Shown: positions 7,149 through 21,000 of the stretch, in pieces
How the letters are laid out: every line of letters starts with the position of its first letter
Position numbering within the stretch: the stretch's first letter is position 1
Translations under genes and position numbers: made by a program
The notes under the pieces: model-generated
Told to the model about the DNA's origin: nothing
Database searches by the model: none
Seen by the model: only the letters and a program-made list of their open reading frames with translations
Source of the DNA: Leucogyrophana mollusca
Taxonomy: Eukaryota > Basidiomycota > Agaricomycetes > Boletales
Assembly: GCA_021014945.1 (NCBI GenBank)
Contig: MU266358.1
Coordinates: 120,031 to 184,030, forward strand
Direction: 5' to 3'
DNA: 64,000 nt

Positions 7149-9968
7149 CTAGCCGCAGTAAATGCCTCCTGGACAGCCTATCGACGTCCCATACACAGCA
7201 CCAGATATACCAGCGATCGTGAAGATAGCATTTACAATGCCCCCGAGCCCTTCCCCAGCAATGAAGCCCGCAGCGACAGCAAAACAATACATTTGATAGT
7301 TGTTGAAGAACCTGCCGAGACATGGGTCTAGTCAGAGACACATCAGGCACAATGCAAAGAGGACAAACATTCTCCTCCAGAAGAAAGCCAAAGTACTTCC
7401 AAAAGCCATCGCCACTGGGTATGTGCAAACATCTAAAGATGGGACCTGAGCATTCGGAACGACGAGCAAGATATTCTGGTAAACCTACTCATGATCCAAC
7501 CGATCCCGATAGCATTGAAATTGCTATACTCAGTGCAAGTGAGGAACGACCAACAATGTCGTGACATAGGACAACGTACGGGATAAAGTCGTGATACTTC
7601 GGAGGCACAATGGTGTACTTCGCCACCACAGAGACTATTGCAGCCAAACCGAGTCCGATCGCAGTGAACCCAGACGAAGGCGGTATAGGTAGAGTGTTGG
7701 ACGACACGGCGACAGCGACAGCCCGCCATGCTTGCACGTCCGGCGCTGGGAAGGGGCATGTCGTGTAGCTCAGATCGTTGATGCAGGGGTACGCAGTCGA
7801 AAAGACGACATAAAGCCCAGCAGACATGAATATGGATACGATAGCACCGTAGAGCTGGGCAATAAAGACTGCCCAAGGAGACGCCCTTAGTAAGTGAGTC
7901 GTTTTCAGGTCACCGATCATATCACCAGCTGTCCCAGCCTCATCAGTAACGGTGGCTCATGGCTACATACACAGTTATTTACCTTGCTCGGCTGCCCCTG
8001 ATGTAGAAGCACGTTCAACACAGGCGCGACGGAATATCGACAGAATACTTGCCTAAAGTCAGCATTCCCGACAGGAGGTTGAGAAGCTCGCCACGCTTGA
8101 CGGCGTATTGCTGTCCCTTCCCAAGACCACCGAAGATCAGTTGAGACGCATTCCCTAAAACATCTCAGGAAAATTCCAACAGGAGAACATAGTCAAGTTC
8201 TCTCACCAATTGACGTGACTGGGTTGATATTCGTACGACCAGAACTTTCGCATCCGATAAAGCTGAACAGGAATGAAAAAATGATCGCTTCGCCCCAACC
8301 AAGTATCAGCGTTGTTTTTGATTAATGCAGTGGGCAAAAACATACCAAGAATTGTGACACCGACATTCTGCCCAAATTGAACGCCCATCACAACGCACGT
8401 CACAATCGTACTCAGAACGAGCACCGAGCTCCAAGCCCAGAAAGGCACGCGTTCATGATGAGGTACCGGGTCCAGGACATCCTCTTCATAAGAGCCCTTG
8501 GAGGCGGGATGCAAGCGTTGCACGAGCATACCGCAGGCAGATCGCATAGCAATATACAGCGACCTCCAGTTGCAGGCTACTTCTGCGAAACTTGCACATA
8601 GAAGCATGAGTGTGCCTGGCCACAGGAGCCAGTACCGCGGCGAGGGGTGGTGTATCGGATCCGTGAGTGTCCTAGTAACAGTTGCTCAAGCATCCAGTTT
8701 CCAGACCGACCTGTAGACTTACATGTCCATGTAATTCATGTATCCGGGTATAGAAGCATCCGCGATGATCCCGAAGGCCTGTACAAGTAAAAGAAGGCGT
8801 AAGTAAACCATGGACAAGCCGAACGAGTTTCGACGCACTTCACCCTTGGTGACGATGATGGGGCCAACAACCGCCCAGGCAAGGAAGCTCTATATAAAAA
8901 ATTAGTTCTTGGGTATCCTGGCTAGGTAGACACACTTACACCACCGAGGAAACTATAGGAAGCATTGATCCCTGTCAACATGCCGACTCCGATGAAAGCA
9001 GGTGTCCACTCCCATATCCAACCCTAGTCAAAATCGACTCGGACCTTTAGTCTGTATTCATGCTATCATAATAAACCATAGGCTTACCCAACTCTCGGCG
9101 CGGATGATCCAATTCCAGCCCACCCTATTGAGTGCATAGAAGATGTGCCAATCCCATAGGAGTCCGGGTGCATATTCACTGACCACGCGAAGGACGATAG
9201 CGCCGAGAAACGCGTAGATAAGTGCTTTGGTCTTCTTCCTCGCGTTGGCCTCGGCATTTCTGCCAACATGCAGGGAGCGTATCGTATATGCAGCTGCAAC
9301 TCCGGACGGGAAAACGAGCTTCAGTTTCAGAATGTAGAACTGCCTTAAGGGTTGCGTGAAAGCCAGGCCGAAGAAGGCGCAGCAGATTGTGAAAGTGATG
9401 AGACGCCCAATGTCGTCCTTTGGATGTGCGCCCAACAAACCGAGCTGGTATGCAGCTGGGAAGCCTGATGTAAACAACAACCCAAGCGACCCGGCAGACG
9501 TCGCTGCCGATTGGCAAACGTTGTTCTCTTTAGGGCCAAAATAGCCGCCACCGAGATAAGTTGGTGCCGCTCGCGATAAAGGCTTTAGTATGGCAAATCC
9601 TAAAATTGACCCGAACAAGGACGCCCCGAAGGTCCAACCAGTCTAAACGGTCTCATGAGCAGGAGGAGATTGACAACAACATTCGATAGGCTTACCTTAA
9701 GTCCAAGATAAATGTTGCTGGCAGCAATGACCGCCCCGAGGATACATCCAACCAAGACGGCGCGAACAGTTAGCTGATTATCTTCGACAGGAGAGTTGGG
9801 AACTTCGGGAAATGGATCATCTGTGTTGATGAATTGATTGTCTTCATCCTCCCCCTGGTCGTCCAAAGAACCGGCCGCCAAAGTGACATCGACCTGATTG
9901 CGTACCTTCTCATCTATGGATGAGGACGACTTCGGTGCCTTCATGTCTGGTGAAGAGTAGGCAGACAT
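7149..9968 (-). CDS. OPT-family oligopeptide transporter, copy 1
   Basis: A polytopic membrane transporter of the OPT superfamily, closest by motif to the YSL/Ygl114w-type branch (uptake of peptides or metal-ligand complexes); the substrate is unknown. Start ATG at 9968 (MSAYSSPDMKAPK), preceded by no in-frame ATG. After an acidic tail come LVGCILGAVIAASNIYLGLK, YLGGGYFGPKENNVCQS, TSGFPAAYQLGLLG, SGVAAAYTIRSLHVGR, IGCESSGRTNINPVTSIG, YPCINDLSYTTCPFP and the end GTSIGCPGGIYCG. About ten short introns interrupt it, and the apparently shifted frame near 8210-8350 resolves with an intron ending GCGAAG before AIIFSFLFSF. It lies directly downstream of copy 2 in the same orientation. Confidence 0.9.
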
Positions 9969-10663: not shown

Positions 10664-13635
10664 TTAACCACAATACACTCCTCCAGGACAGCCGATACTT
10701 GTCCCATACACGGCACCCGAAACACCTGCTATCGTCAACACAGCGTTGACGATACCTCCCAACCCCTCGCCTGCGATAAATCCCGCTGCGACAGCGTAGC
10801 AATACATTTGGTAATTGGTGAAGAACCTTGATTGTCAATGGAGGCTTTGTGAGCGAACGGAGCGCCTCGAACTAAATCCAGGACTTACATCCTTCTCCAG
10901 AAGAAAGCGATCGTAGATCCGAAGAACATGGCTAGAGGGTATGTGCACACATCTGAGGATGCGTCAGTGAAGTTCATAATGTACCACTAAAGCAGTCAAT
11001 ACTAACTCATAATGAATCCTATGCCTGAAAATTGGTGGGTTGAATTATATGAGCGGCGGAACTCAGTCGATATGGTACCACAAACCTATAGCGTTGAAGT
11101 TGGGCACCCATGCGTGGTATTTAGGTGGAACCACAGTATATTTCGCGACGACAGATATCACAGCTGCTATACCCATGCCAATGGCGGTATAACCAGAGGA
11201 AGGAGGAATGGGAAGAGTAGAGGATGACACAGCGACCGCGACTGCCTACAGTGGCACGTTAGAACCAATGTTATGATGTTCAATGTGGCCACTTACCCTC
11301 CATGATTGCACGTCCGGCGTCGGGAAACTACACGTTGTGAAGGCGAGGTCGTTGATGCAGGGGTACGCTGTAGAGAATACGACGTAGATGCCAGCGGCCA
11401 TGAAGATGGAGACGACAGCGCCGCATAACTGGGCTAAGAAAACTGCCTTGGGAGAGGCTCTGATAAGATGGCTAGTTTTCAGGTCGCTGATCATGTCGGA
11501 GGCTGGCCAGGAATCGACTTAGCCAATGCGACTAGAACCGCACCGACGAGCTTACCCTGTTCGGCCGCACCTGCATCAGGGAAACAAGTTGCATCAGGCA
11601 GTGTATGCGAGCGAAAGATGACTAACCCAGAGCGAGCATTCCCGACAAGGAGTTGAGGAGTTCCCCACGCTGCACTGAATACCCGCGCCCCTTCCCGAGA
11701 CCACCAAAGATAAGCTGTGATGCATTGCCTGAACAGCCGATAGCTAAGTTAGAGATACGTCCAGTTGATCAAGTGACTCACCAATTGAGGTAACAGGGTT
11801 GATGTTGGTGCGACCAGAACTCTCGCACCCGATAAAGCTGAACAGGAAAGCGAAGATGATGGCTGTACAAATGTGAGTCTGGTGCACAACCGAGAGGCTC
11901 TAGACGTACCGAGTATCGTAATACCGACATTCTGTCCGTACTGTACACCCATCACAACACAGGTAACAATGATACTGGCTAAGAGCACGGAGCCCCAGAG
12001 CCAGAAGGGTACACGTTCTTCTTCTGGGACGGGGTCGACAATGTCGTCCACGTTCTCTTTATCCCCCGAAAACATGTGCATTCGCTCTGTCAATGCGCTC
12101 ATGGCAGTCCTTGCGGCTGCGAACAGCGACTTCCAGTTGCATGCGACTTCGGCAAAACTGGCGCAGAGGAGCATTAAGGTTCCGGGCCAGACCTGCGTAA
12201 TAGTTTGGTACATAATCATAATGACGAGGCGTTCGTCTCACCAGCCAGTATCGTGGCGAAGGATGATTGATTGGGTCGGTAAGTGACCTGCGAGAGATGT
12301 CAGATGTCTGAAAGTGACAATGAAGTATTCATACATGTCATCGTAGTTCATGTAGCCAGGTATGCTAGCGTCCGCGACAATTCCAAATGCCTGCGGGCAA
12401 CTTTCAGTTGATTAAGTTTTGAGTTGGCTACTGCGGCACATACTTTGCCAGTCGTGACGATAGCAGGACCGATGATTGCCCATGCAAGGAAGCTCTACAG
12501 AAACCATCACCAAATGCACTCACGAAGCAACGAAAGTCACTAACTCCACCCAAAAAGCTGTAGGATGCGTTAATACCGGTCAACATCCCAGCACCTATGA
12601 AAGCAGGTGTCCATTCCCAGATCCATCCCTGAAGAATTAGCGTGCTATAGTGAGACAAGTCCTGGAAGCATGATCTGTTGAAACACATACCCAACTTTCG
12701 GCACGAATGATCCAGTCCCACCCGACTCTATTGAGAGCATAGAAGATATGCCAGTCCCATAGAAGTCCAGGTGCGTATTCGCTGACGACGCGAAGAGTGA
12801 TCGCGAAGCAAAACGAAAGTATCAAGGCCTTGGTTTTCTTCTTGGCGTCGAGAGCAGCGTTTTTGCCGACATGAAGCGAGCGGATGGTGTAAGCGGCCGC
12901 CACTCCAGAGGGGAACACGAGCTTCAGTTTCAAGATATAGAACTTCCTCAGTGGCACCGAGAATGCAAGGCCAAAGAAGGCGCAACAGATTGTGAAGGTG
13001 AAGAGGCGACCGATGTCATCTGCAGGAGAGGCGCCAAGCAAACCGAGCTGATATGCTGCCGGAAACCCCGACGTGAAGAGCAGACCTAATGATCCGGCGG
13101 CGGAAGCCGCCGACTGGCAAACATTGTTCTCTTTGGGGCCGAAGTAACCGCCCCCAAGATATCGTGGAGCGGTCGTCGACAACGGTTTCAAAATGGCGAA
13201 TCCGAAGATTGACCCAAATAGAGAGGCACCAAAGGTCCACCCAGTCTGAGTGTGAGATCAGGCACGCATTGCAATGAGGAGGTAAGTCAAGCATACTTTT
13301 AGGCCAAGATAGACATTACTAGCAGCAATCACGGCTCCGAGCCCACAGCCAACCAGAATGGCCCGGAGAGTGAATTGCTGCTCCTCCACCGGTGCGTCGG
13401 GGTCAATGGGGAACGGATCATCGGTGTTGATGGTCCGTGCATTGGTGACATCCTTGGTATGATCGTCTTCCTGCGATTCTAGTCCAGACGCGGAAATGAA
13501 ATCGACATCCAAATGACGTTTTTCATCCTCTAATGAAGATGAAGAAAAGTCCTCCTTGATTTCCGGGGAAGCCAGAGCATGACCGCCAGTAACTCCACTC
13601 TCGTAGATGATTCCGTCCTCCGAAGGCAAACTCAT
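10664..13635 (-). CDS. OPT-family oligopeptide transporter, copy 2
   Basis: A tandem paralogue of copy 1 with the same exon order. It starts at ATG 13635 (MSLPSEDGIIYESGVT), with an acidic cytosolic tail that differs from copy 1. The transmembrane body is nearly colinear: LVGCGLGAVIAASNVYLGLK, YLGGGYFGPKENNVCQSAA, LKLKLVFPSGVAAAYTIRSL, GCESSGRTNINPVTSIG, ending GTSIGCPGGVYCG. By eye the membrane segments differ mainly by conservative changes, while the N-terminal tails and introns have diverged. That pattern fits a fairly old tandem duplication under purifying selection. A TATA-like CATATAAG lies about 50 bases upstream of the ATG. Confidence 0.9.
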
Positions 13636-16187: not shown

Positions 16188-16840
16188 ATGAGTCTGTCGT
16201 CGTTTTTCTCGTCTTTCCTCCCTGTGGTGCACGCAGACGCGCCCGAAGAAAAGGAGGAGGAGTCCGTGCAGAAGCCTGAAGACGCGGAAGAGCCTTCGGA
16301 GGACGTGGAGGAAGCCGAACAGCCCGAAGAAGAGGAGGAGGAGCCTGAAGACGTGAGTTTTGGTGAAGTCCTGCAGCGTTTGCTAACCTGCGGTCAGATT
16401 CACCCAACCATAAGGGAAGAATGTCAGAATAGTGCCAAGTGTGCTCCGTTCACCAAACACTTTGAGCACTGCCAAGAGAAAATACAAGCAGGTCAAGGCT
16501 ACAAGGGCGAGGACTGTGTCGAGGAATTGTGCGTGACGAATTCTCCTCTGATACTCAAAAGCTAATGTTTGCATTTCATCATTGTATCCAGATGTATGTA
16601 GAGTGTTGTATCGTCACAATGACAATTCACTAACACTACTTTCTTCCTCGGCTGGTTTACCGTTCAGTCCAGTGAGTATCCTGTCGTGGTGCTATTGTTC
16701 TGGAGCTGACTTGCTTCCCCAGTATGATGCATTGCGCCGATGTGCGTATTTCATATTTAACCTGATTTACGATGTACCAGTCTGCTAATACTGCGCGCTA
16801 GGCTTGCGCTGCCCCGAAGTTGTTCTCTAAGCTCCGTTAG
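16188..16840 (+). CDS. QCR6: Cytochrome bc1 complex subunit 6 (hinge protein)
   Basis: An acidic subunit of mitochondrial complex III that aids cytochrome c1-cytochrome c interaction in the intermembrane space. The 119-residue model has a start at 16188, a Glu/Asp-rich stretch at residues 20-55, and then the paired-Cys hinge fold (EECQNSAKC, HFEHCQEKI, GEDCVEE, LFHMMHCAD, ACAAPKLFSKLR). Exons: 16188-16352, 16398-16528, 16592-16593, 16668-16671, 16723-16741, 16802-16840. The two middle exons are only 2 and 4 nt. They are required to make the conserved LFH before MMHC, and the total length is exactly 120 codons including the stop. Each of the three introns around them has a good donor, acceptor and branch-like site. 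Confidence 0.9.
16592..16593 (+). other. QCR6: 2-nt microexon of QCR6
   Basis: The dinucleotide AT is preceded by acceptor TATCCAG (intron 16529-16591, donor GTGCGT, branch-like GCTAAT) and followed by donor GTATGT (intron 16594-16667, branch-like ACTAAC, acceptor TTCAG). With the neighbouring exons it forms TT-AT-TCCA-TATG, reading Leu-Phe-His-Met. Confidence 0.75.
16668..16671 (+). other. QCR6: 4-nt microexon of QCR6
   Basis: TCCA lies between acceptor GTTCAG and donor GTGAGT. The following intron 16672-16722 carries GCTGAC and ends CCCCAG. It supplies the Phe and His codon parts of the conserved FHMMHC segment. Confidence 0.75.
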
Positions 16841-18094
16841 ATGCCGTCTTATTGTTTTACTGTGCGTTCCACCATTGCACATTAACATTAGTGTGCTGAC
16901 ATCATTTCAGTAGATTATTGCGCACCTCTGTACCTCGAAAAGAATACACTTCTTTCCCGGGTTTCTTTTCAATTTGGCTCGCCTGTGAACGTGTCCAAGA
17001 GCAGCCCATGTTTGCGAACAATCTTTGATGGTTGATTCGTAACAGATGGATCATCTTGTGGTCATTGTGAAAAATCACAAGGGATTCAGGTGGCCCTTGT
17101 AAGCCTTAATGTTAAATACCACACGCTGTGGGAGCTCGAGGCGGACAGTCAACCTGCTCGGGGCTCGTCCCGTATCGTTGGTGCTGCTACTCGTCATTTC
17201 CATTCCGCACGACATCAGACGTGATCCCATCCCCTGCAGATGCGAAGCAGGGCACCAGCTGCTATACCAGCCATTTATTTTGAACGCCTAACCCATCACC
17301 AGCAGTATTCTGGTTTTGTAGTGCACACGCAGTGTCTGCATGCTTTGGCATCTCGACCGTCACAGCCTCATCTTGTGCCCAACGCTCCAGAAGTTTGACC
17401 TGTGCGGCGCCCATCAATGCAGATCTGATCTTCCCTGTAGTGCTCGAGGTACCGCGCGAGGATATTCAAATTGATACATTGTCGCGGTATTTGTTGGTGC
17501 ACCCTTTGCGTCGCCCTGCTTTGTTCCTTTACCGTGACGCCGATGGCTCTCATAGTTCAGGTCCTGAGAGGCCTGAGCCAACGAACGTAGGTCTTAACAG
17601 GAAATGCGCCCGTCTGAGTCAGCATCGTGCTGCCTGGGTGTGCAGGGTTTGCTCACAAACCCACGAGCGTCTATGACCGTGCCGGGAACATTAAGGGCAT
17701 CAATCGCATAACGACAATCCTCCATATGGTAGAATGGGCGATGACACCGCAGGCGCCAGCTGCAGAACCGCATTACAGCCTCCCAGACACGCCCTTTGCA
17801 CAGGGAGTACTGCACCACAGTGCTGTGTAAGGCTCTTCCCTGCACTTTGCCTTTCCCCACCCACTGTATTTTGTTACATTCAACGGGAGGATAGTTTGTG
17901 TATTATTTGAACACTTCACAGATTTCGTCGCGGGTAAGCCCTCTTTACCCTGCTTGCATCCGTCTACCTGACTGATTTTCGCCTCTCAGGGTGATACTAT
18001 CCAGTCTTACTAGCAGGCCGTAGATCGCGTCATCGCGTCGGGCTGGTCACTTGGACTTAAACATATACACCCTTGCTGACCATCCTTCACCAAC
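16841..18094. other. Intergenic region, no supported gene
   Basis: 1.25 kb between QCR6 and the WD40 gene. A 114-codon open frame at 17332-17676 has no recognised domain, and its opposite strand is also open in part, so it is not called. Confidence 0.5.
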
Positions 18095-21000
18095 ATGACA
18101 TCTTCTGGCGATCCGACGAAACCGTTCGTTGGGCATACGGGTTCAATCATGGCTGTTGCCTACTCTCCTGACGGGGGAAGAATCGCGACCGGATCTGGCG
18201 ATCACACCGTACGGATATGGGACGCCCTAACAGGAAAGAAAGTGATGGAACCGTGGACGGGACATACAGATGAAGTCAACACAATTTCGTTCTCGCCAGA
18301 TGGAAAGAGACTAGTCTCCGGAGGCGACGACTACACGCTCCGAGTTTGGAATGTCAAAACTGGAGAGTGCATCTTGGGACCGTTAGAAGGGCATACACAC
18401 TGGGTCATGACAGTCGTGTTCTCCCCCGACGGGAAACTGATCGCAAGCGGCGCGAACGATAAGATATTACGTCTGTGGAACTCGGAGACAGGAGAGAAAA
18501 TCAAAGACATCACAGCCCATACCGAGGCCGTTCGTACTCTTACATTTTCGCCTGATGGCAAGCGCCTCGCCAGTGGATCCAACGACAACAAAATTCGAGT
18601 ATTCGACGTGGAGACAGGGAACGTGATACTCGGTCCTCTGGGCGGACACACGGAGTGGGTGCGCTCGGTGGTGTTTTCGCCAGATGGTCTGCGCTTCGCG
18701 AGCGGATCGGATGACCACACCGTGCGTATATGGGACGCGGTCACTGGCAAGACGGTTGTTGGGCCCCTTGAAGGACACAGCAACTGGGTCGGATGTGTCC
18801 AGTTCTCGCCGGATGGGAAGAAGATCCTGAGTGGAGCGCATGATAGAACATTGCGTGTTTGGAACGCGCAAACAGGGAAGTTGCTCCTTGGTCCCTTGAA
18901 GGGCCACAATGACTCGATTCGTGCCCTCGCCTTCTCCCGCGATGGTTCACGGATACTGAGTGGAGCGGTGGATGGCACTCTGCGCATCTGGGACTCGAAG
19001 AGTGGTGACGCTCTTGTGCCAACGGTAAGCTGGGTCCAGTTTTCTACCAGGCAGAAACTAAGATTTTCGGCATTTCATACGTTAGATGTCGGACGAGGAG
19101 AAGCGCCAGTACGAGGAAAAACCTGAAACTGTGAAGAGCGAATCATCGCCCCCTGCTCGTTCTCCAACTCCTCCGCCACCAACCGCCGAGCCGTCAGCCC
19201 CATTCAAGTGGCATACAGCAGCAGTTATGGCTGTAGAATACTTCCCAGATGGTAAACGGGTAGCCAGTGGCTCGAACGATCGAACAATTCGGATCTGGAA
19301 TGCACAAACAGGAGGAAAGGCTATGGAACCGCTGTTGGGACACACAGACGAAGTCAACGCTATCTCCATATCACCGGACGGGAAAAGGATTGCGAGCGGC
19401 GCGGACGACCACACAGTGCGAGTGTGGGACACCCAGACGGGAGAATTGGTTTTGGGGCCGCTGCAGGGGCATACAGACTGGATCATGGGTTTGAAATATT
19501 CTCCTGACGGCAAACTAATAGCGAGCGGTGGGGGGGAGAACGAGATACGTATTTGGAAGGCAGACACAGGTGAACTCGTCAGGTTGATCACTGGACACAC
19601 AAACGCCGTCCGCACGTTGTCCTTTTCCCCCGACGGCAGGCGACTCGCAAGCGGCGCAAATGACAACTCAATACGGATCTGGGATGTGTCTACGGGGCGG
19701 CTCGTACTCGGCCCTTTTGAAGGTCATACGAGCTGGGTCCGTTCGGTGGTCTATTCTCCAGATGGCCGGCGCATTGCCAGCGGATCTGATGATCACAACA
19801 TACGTGTATGGGATGCCGAATCGGGCCGGACCATTCTAGGACCATTGGAGGGACATGATGACTGGGTGGGGTGTGTTGTGTATTCCCCAGACGGGCGCAG
19901 AATCGCCAGTTGTGCCCACGACAAGACAATTCGGGTGTGGGATGCGACGTCGGGTGCCCTAGTTCTAGGGCCACTGGAAGGCCACCAGAATGCACTTCGC
20001 GCCCTTGCGTATTCTCCCGATGGTTCCAAGATACTAAGCGGCTCATTGGACAACACTCTGCGGATTTGGGATGCGAAGACTGGCCAGGTCCTGGTTCCAG
20101 CTGTAAGTCCTCCCAGTGCTTGTCACGCTTGTCGGTTTACTAACGTTACATCTTGTATTAGAACTCGCGCGATACGAAAAGCCCACCCCGTGCAGTGAGT
20201 GTATTGCATACTCATACTATGCGCTCTCTTGACCCAGACTACTCCTGCTGTAGCCCCGCCAATCCGCACCCAGACCACATCGTCAAGTAAGTCGCTCATC
20301 TTTGTACATTTTCGCCAGTGTCCACTGACAAATATCTGATATGCAGGGGTCTGACGATTCTTTCTTGGACGTAAGCCCATCTCCTCCTGGGGCCTAATGG
20401 TATTGCGTTGCTGACAACATGTCAACCCAGTTGCCTGCTACCATCGTTGTAGCAGCTGCTATAGGTCCGGAACGAGATGGCAATACCTCGGGGTCACAGT
20501 TCCCCTCGCGGGGAAGACAGGATTCTTCAGATGGTATGAGCACGTCGAGTTCGTTTGACTCCATATTAGATGTATGCATAACTCCCCTTATGTTGATGCC
20601 CTGGATAACCCCTCCTATTTTTCAGTTACCAGCAACATCTGGGGGGCCTCCACCCCGAAGACGCAAAAAAAAGAAATCAAAGCCCCCCGTCGAGGCGGAC
20701 AAGTTAAGCACCAAGTCTAGCCCCCCTGCAGAGCCTGCAAAACAAGAAGAGACCGAGGGAAAACCAAAGAAACAGGAATCGAAGCAAGATGGCAAGGCTT
20801 TTGCGCAATTGTGGTCTCGTATTCGTGCGGGTAGGCGGAGCGGAAGTGCGGGGAACAACCTCGAGATGCAACAGACGAACCCTCAGCCCGCACCTGCGCC
20901 TGTACTAGCTGACGTCGCTGCTGCCAGGGGCCGTGATGTGAGTTTTCGTTATAGACTATTTCTATCAACACTTACACTCCCAATTTAACAGAGAGTCTTT

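Follow-up and report, generated by a model that had tools for sequence, protein, structure and literature searches.

The QCR6 gene (UQCRH, the hinge subunit of cytochrome bc1) at positions 16188-16840 on the + strand of the window, that is the whole stretch of 64,000 nt of DNA that was analysed, very probably carries three canonical introns within six coding bases, an arrangement that would leave a 2-nt exon, AT, followed by a 4-nt exon, TCCA. This reading is based on the genomic sequence and on the proteins of related fungi. Taken by itself, the 2-nt exon is likely to be present on the evidence of the genomic sequence, with a confidence equal to that in the whole arrangement. A preliminary description of this DNA had held that both tiny exons are needed. 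Sequence support was found for both, and relatives add support for TCCA; the part concerning AT is less secure, because a GC donor at 16531 would yield the same protein without it.

Gene structure and splicing parses

As predicted, QCR6 consists of six exons (165, 131, 2, 4, 19 and 39 nt) and five introns (45, 63, 74, 51 and 60 nt), all on the + strand, and its product has 119 amino acids. Exon 1 begins with the start codon at 16188 (16188-16352) and is followed by an ordinary intron (16353-16397, GTGAGT...TCAG, 20.3 bits on the scale described below) and by exon 2 (16398-16528), whose 3' end reads ...GAGGAATT and stands in phase 2. Intron 1 of the finding (16529-16591, GTGCGT...CCAG) precedes the putative 2-nt exon at 16592-16593, which is supported by motif restoration and the null tests and would supply the third base of the Leu codon TTA and the first base of the Phe codon TTC. 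Intron 2 (16594-16667, GTATGT...TCAG) precedes the 4-nt exon at 16668-16671, which is supported by motif restoration and by relatives and would supply the remainder of the Phe codon and the first two bases of His. Intron 3 (16672-16722, GTGAGT...CCAG, with CTGAC 14 nt before its end) leads into the 19-nt exon TATGATGCATTGCGCCGAT (16723-16741), which ends the His codon and then encodes MMHCAD. The last intron (16742-16801) shares its GTGCGT donor hexamer with intron 1 and has a donor score of 7.0 bits, and the last exon (16802-16840) contains the stop codon. The coordinates, donors, acceptors and lengths of the three introns around the tiny exons (63, 74 and 51 nt) are exactly those of the preliminary description. 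The 19-nt exon is a third very small exon in this gene, and it too is seemingly lost in some relatives' models, for example in Pisolithus thermaeus (P0106) and Earliella (P0129).

Against the PF02320 profile, the protein of the six-exon structure scored 97.4 bits over positions 1-65 of the 65 in the model. This lies above the curated cut-off of 27.2 over the entire model length, which places the protein in the family and bears out the earlier identification of the gene as QCR6. The product of a single 194-nt intron (16529-16722), without both tiny exons, scored 84.4 bits, 13 bits lower, and was two residues shorter; that FH is lost without the two exons had been correctly foreseen. A DNA search of the fungus's own assembly (32.3 Mb, 545 contigs) returned a single copy of QCR6, and the best named protein relatives, among the matches listed, were from Serpula (71% identity), Hygrophoropsis, Gyrodon and Hydnomerulius, which suggests an agaricomycete close to Boletales.

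We enumerated the parses of positions 16521-16735 with at most four GT/GC-AG introns of 40-200 nt, no further donor dinucleotides being admitted. The conserved motif EE[LFMIV][FY]H[ML]MHC was restored by two of the 591 parses, both with the 4-nt exon and one with the 2-nt exon, and nested or iterated excision, including the use of sites created by earlier steps, returned the same two. The parse with both tiny exons places AT and TCCA between introns of 63, 74 and 51 nt, gives the predicted spliced sequence ...GAATTATTCCATATG... and reads EE-LFH-MMHC. The other lengthens exon 2 through 16530 (TTG T) and takes the GC at 16531 as donor (TTGT/GCGTGA, the slash marking the splice boundary here and below), so that GAATTGT is joined to TCCA over a 137-nt intron (16531-16667, GCGTGA...TCAG) with AT inside it. 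Its predicted spliced sequence is ...GAATTGTTCCATATG..., and its protein is identical, the Leu codon being TTG instead of TTA. The earlier claim that the 4-nt exon alone breaks the frame is thus not necessarily correct, since this GC donor joins TCCA in frame. Starting from the structure with both tiny exons, skipping one of them does produce a frameshift, and skipping both (predicted sequence ...GAATTTATGATG...) keeps the frame and leaves the conserved stretch two residues shorter. A stwintron, in which an inner intron breaks the splice signal of an outer intron, was rejected as a reading of QCR6, as nested and iterated excision gave no further motif-bearing product.

Intron scores and null tests

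Each intron was scored as the sum of donor, acceptor, best branch-like motif and length. Reference introns were taken from seven genes of the fungus's own assembly, to which proteins of the actin, EF1A and tubulin families had been aligned; GT/GC-AG introns were allowed, with the wider splice context unweighted and with an extra penalty for GC. The reference set contained 67 introns (63 with GT and 4 with GC donors), of which 64 measured 46-78 nt and three measured 109, 131 and 140 nt. The scoring matrix was built from the 64 introns of 45-80 nt, and the three longer, doubtful ones were excluded from it. The set is weaker than its size suggests, because it holds paralogues (three actins) and because 20 of the 67 introns come from one less conserved tubulin-like gene. 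The reference introns of 140 and 131 nt (L030 and L027) are far longer than most and could themselves hide tiny exons.

Introns 1, 2 and 3 scored 20.2, 19.2 and 22.4 bits, respectively, compared with a reference median of 20.9, a 5% quantile of 14.4 and a minimum of 3.1 (n = 67). Their donors scored 6.8, 7.9 and 7.7 bits, which corresponds to the 44th to 58th percentile of 64 reference donors, intron 1 standing at the 44th and intron 2 at the 58th. The signals flanking AT and TCCA are therefore canonical and their scores typical for this genome, with one exception in the branch motif of intron 2, which is unusually distant. The CTNA-type branch-like motifs reported in the preliminary description are present in each intron, as CTGAT or CTAAT in intron 1, CTAAC in intron 2 and CTGAC in intron 3. 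In intron 1 the best motif lies 41 nt before the end, and the CTAAT at 27 nt is nearly equal (total 19.8 bits). In intron 2 the CTAAC is placed 35 nt before the intron end, a distance reached by one of 64 reference introns, and confining the branch motif to the last 30 nt lowers the score of intron 2 to 12.4 bits. This distance does not discriminate between the two motif-restoring parses, because the acceptor is common to both.

The same scale argues against the GC donor at 16531. Its sequence, TGT/GCGTGA, scored -2.65 bits, whereas the lowest of the 64 reference donors from 45-80-nt introns scored 0.41; among the three longer, doubtful introns of the set, one donor was lower still at -7.19 bits. 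GC donors as such do occur in this genome, in 4 of the 67 protein-defined introns, and these four all have G at position -1 and score 2.6-6.1 bits, a strong context that the donor at 16531 lacks. The complete 137-nt intron scored 8.5 bits, a total as low or lower in one of 67 reference introns, and lengths of at least 109 nt were found in three of 67. The GC-AG introns of the reference set lie in actin genes (L022 and L023, contig C7) and in the tubulin-like gene (L029); two of the four share one site in a pair of actin paralogues. According to the part of the source available, 1.0% of the splice-site pairs annotated in fungi are GC-AG (PMC7072748).

For the null tests the flanks were retained, and a rescue was taken to equal the real one when the motif was restored with every intron scoring at least as high as the weakest real one, at 19.18 bits. 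Among 5000 doublet shuffles of the interior, rescues numbered 1890 at a threshold of at least 12 bits, 18 at 15 bits, 3 at 17 bits and 0 at 19.18 bits; we think that the large number at 12 bits comes from GC-donor variants made by the shuffling itself. When 5000 real genomic interiors were inserted instead, the corresponding counts were 188, 3, 0 and 0. No rescue at 12 bits or more was seen in 5000 shuffles of the entire 194 nt. Earlier and looser nulls of 2000 sequences each, the first two of which excluded the GC-donor parse, had given 125 (shuffles), 107 (genomic interiors) and 6 (194-nt shuffles) rescues with a threshold of 5 bits and none with one of 19.2 bits. Weak rescues are therefore fairly common, while a rescue as good as the real one was never seen. 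If the GC donor at 16531 were used, the two well-scoring introns around AT would be a coincidence of a kind found in 0 of 5000 null sequences. Altogether, the evidence weighs strongly, but not finally, against a gene with one microexon only, and we regard that structure as unlikely.

Conservation of FH and traces of introns in relatives

Relatives were collected with three protein searches, of which the best 120 of 373, 207 and 418 matches were used, giving 209 distinct proteins that were grouped by hand from their source and organism name. Among the matches listed, x[FY]H was present in 42 of 43 environmental proteins from short contigs (jgi, lgn, ena and merc), the remaining one being short. 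These contigs measured 0.5-4.7 kb where a length was given and probably represent transcripts, as no introns interrupt their reading frames. FH was also intact in all 27 listed models that we take, from their genus names, to belong to Tremellomycetes and Pucciniomycotina, and the five PDB alignments listed had no gap at this position. In contrast, x[FY]H was intact in just 30 of the 139 agaricomycete database models among the matches listed. The other 109 were exactly two residues short (64 models), had extra residues before His (16), carried another residue (2), were altered with loss of His (10) or were broken or short (17). Since FH is constant in the listed basidiomycete QCR6 proteins outside the agaricomycete models, the fault most likely lies with annotation. 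Several Polyporales models (P0064, P0069, P0099, P0117, P0124, P0125 and others) read EEF-MMHC or EEF-LMHC, for which an exon end of TTCT/GT would not easily account, and two strains of Lentinus tigrinus have conflicting QCR6 models (P0099 and P0126).

These counts bear on the possibility that the gene has one 194-nt intron and that its protein truly reads EE-F-MMHC. Such an intron is in frame, scored 14.5 bits (as low as four of the 67 reference introns) and would give the two-residue-shorter form of the 64 agaricomycete models. That form, however, was confined to agaricomycete database models, with 0 of 43 environmental and 0 of 27 other basidiomycete proteins among the matches listed; together with the lower PF02320 score and the ungapped PDB alignments, this makes the single long intron very improbable. 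Mixed splicing, in which the LFH product would be accompanied by the in-frame skip as a minor isoform, seems more improbable still. Omission of both exons would not frameshift the message, but the skip form was found in 0 of the 43 listed environmental proteins, although these would represent the major assembled forms.

Mis-spliced models are informative in another way, because intron ends are translated in them. A genomic [ACT]AG/[TA]CCA immediately upstream of the conserved exon was compatible with 12 of 14 tested extended models, compared with 6.8% of random residue pairs. The compatible models came from Suillus (2), Tricholoma, Laccaria, Mycena, Plicaturopsis, Trametes (3), Ganoderma, Dichomitus and Rhizoctonia. 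The two incompatible ones were Heliocybe, which fits a 6-nt exon (AG/YTTCCA), and the other Dichomitus squalens model. Outside the tested 14, the Candolleomyces models (P0189 and P0196) lack the AG/TCCA pattern by eye and have extra residues before an intact FH, and the structure of their QCR6 gene may differ. As the 12 compatible models are spread across lineages, the 4-nt exon, if it had a single origin, predates their split. From these translated intron ends, TCCA is very likely a real exon, and it looks old.

The donor after exon 2 was more variable. Of 19 tails from relatives, 7 fitted only xxxT/GT, 6 fitted only xx/GT, 4 fitted both and 2 fitted neither, the xxxT/GT pattern having been tested more laxly than xx/GT. 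The tails that fitted only xx/GT, as in the gene studied here, came from two Lentinula, Gelatoporia, Hebeloma, one D. squalens model and Suillus bovinus. An xxxT/GT donor is compatible with a single microexon, and the exon end xxxT/ implied by the GC donor at 16531 is the position fitted exclusively by the 7 tails, which is a point in favour of that donor. Species that combine xx/GT with AG/[TA]CCA would need two further bases, in the form of a 2-nt exon or of some other arrangement between which the proteins do not discriminate.

Three relatives were also parsed by hand. Cubamyces lactineus gave a single 4-nt exon flanked by introns of 74 and 56 nt, the donor lying clearly after T, although the match for the exon is weak evidence alone, as 575 of 5000 shuffled peptides matched as well. 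The intron before the 4-nt exon measured about 78 nt in Plicaturopsis and about 66 nt in Mycena floridula if the donor follows T, and two bases more otherwise; both species are among the four whose tails are compatible with either donor. An intron of about 66-78 nt resembles intron 2 (74 nt) and is unlike the 137-nt intron of the GC-donor parse. Scans of viral and genome contig collections for DNA of this kind found no relative.

Origin, order of splicing and comparison with known small exons

With both tiny exons accepted as the preferred structure, intron 2 matches the relatives' intron in place and approximate length, and intron 1 therefore looks like the added one, with AT as a former exon end. 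Intron 1 (16529-16591) was probably gained two bases upstream of an old intron 2 (16594-16667), which would have created the 2-nt exon. An alternative route would be the loss of two exon bases and their rescue by a cryptic 2-nt exon, as proposed for Fusarium CYP621A. An introner-type origin of introns 1 and 2 was rejected, as a DNA search with these introns and a few flanking bases returned self-matches only and no similar copies in the fungus's own assembly.

For fungal introns of such small size, intron definition is the generally assumed mode of recognition. In QCR6 the acceptor of intron 1 is separated by 2 nt from the next donor, that of intron 2, and 4 nt separate the acceptor of intron 2 from the donor that follows it, so that neighbouring spliceosomes are unlikely to occupy both sites of such a pair at once. 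Splicing is probably sequential, and we infer intron definition with an obligatory order of removal. If introns 1 and 3 were removed first, intron 2 would come to lie between larger exons and would be removed last, and both clashes would be solved. The statement in the preliminary description that such exons challenge exon-definition models is overstated, because intron definition is the general assumption for introns of this size and stepwise removal suffices. We lean, by a small measure, towards a combined view in which an intron was recently gained beside a 4-nt exon that has been kept since before the main agaricomycete orders parted, the middle intron is obligatorily removed last, and the arrangement has been hidden by annotation throughout the class.

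Very small exons have been published before, and the comparisons below follow the available portions of the papers cited. Nelson and Syed (2026; PMC12940212) described a 1-nt exon in Fusarium CYP621A with transcript support and proposed base loss followed by cryptic-exon rescue. Like QCR6, this ultra-small fungal exon was found through a conserved protein motif and a phase mismatch; unlike it, CYP621A has one 1-nt exon supported by transcripts, whereas in QCR6, a respiratory-chain gene, the exons predicted from the sequence would be two consecutive ones of 2 and 4 nt. The introduction of the same paper mentions that Arabidopsis, Drosophila and humans have exons of 2-5 bp; these fall in the size range of those in QCR6 but belong to other kingdoms and are not described as consecutive in the part available (PMC12940212). 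Plant APC11 and VPS55 contain 1-nt exons (PMC4674806; PMC8831610), and Guo and Liu argued for sequential splicing of the APC11 exon, citing potato invertase (PMC4674806). As in QCR6, these exons are far below exon-definition size, are absent from annotations and have led to proposals of step-by-step splicing, although, as far as the accessible text goes, they are single and are found in plants (PMC4674806; PMC8831610).

The closest adjacent pair in the literature searched was that of rice, whose microexons of 5 and 12 nt are larger than the 2 and 4 nt of QCR6 (PMC8831610). MPC1, like QCR6 a gene for a mitochondrial protein with a 4-nt exon, has one microexon only in the text available, of 4 bp and called constitutive (PMC9929638). 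In the agaricomycete Phanerochaete chrysosporium, P450 genes also have very small exons, the shortest given in the accessible part of the report being 6 bp, as opposed to 2 nt in QCR6 (PMC1184071). Fungal stwintrons, as far as their description was available, likewise have nearly touching splice sites that need consecutive reactions; there an internal intron breaks the splice signal of another intron, whereas in QCR6 2 and 4 coding nt would separate the introns.

Within the literature searched, a coverage that leaves out most subscription journals, we found no consecutive pair of 2-nt and 4-nt exons and nothing on basidiomycete QCR6 introns, and the CYP621A paper was the only related work found for 2-nt or 4-nt exons by name. 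Since the literature already contains 1-nt exons and exons of 2-5 nt, the consecutive 2-nt and 4-nt pair would be a new form of something known. If the structure is true, QCR6 is a natural substrate with two nearly overlapping splice-site pairs, in which the order of intron removal can be tested directly. Many agaricomycete QCR6 gene models could also be corrected, because the 109 of 139 listed models without an intact x[FY]H include 64 that deviate by exactly two residues.

Elsewhere in the window, two long WD40-rich open frames at 18080-20195 on the + strand overlap by 38 nt in different frames, which would be an intron or a frameshift within one WD40 protein. Fragments of OPT oligopeptide transporters lie a few kb apart on the - strand, at 9061-9642 and 12640-13257, and perhaps belong to tandem intron-bearing genes.
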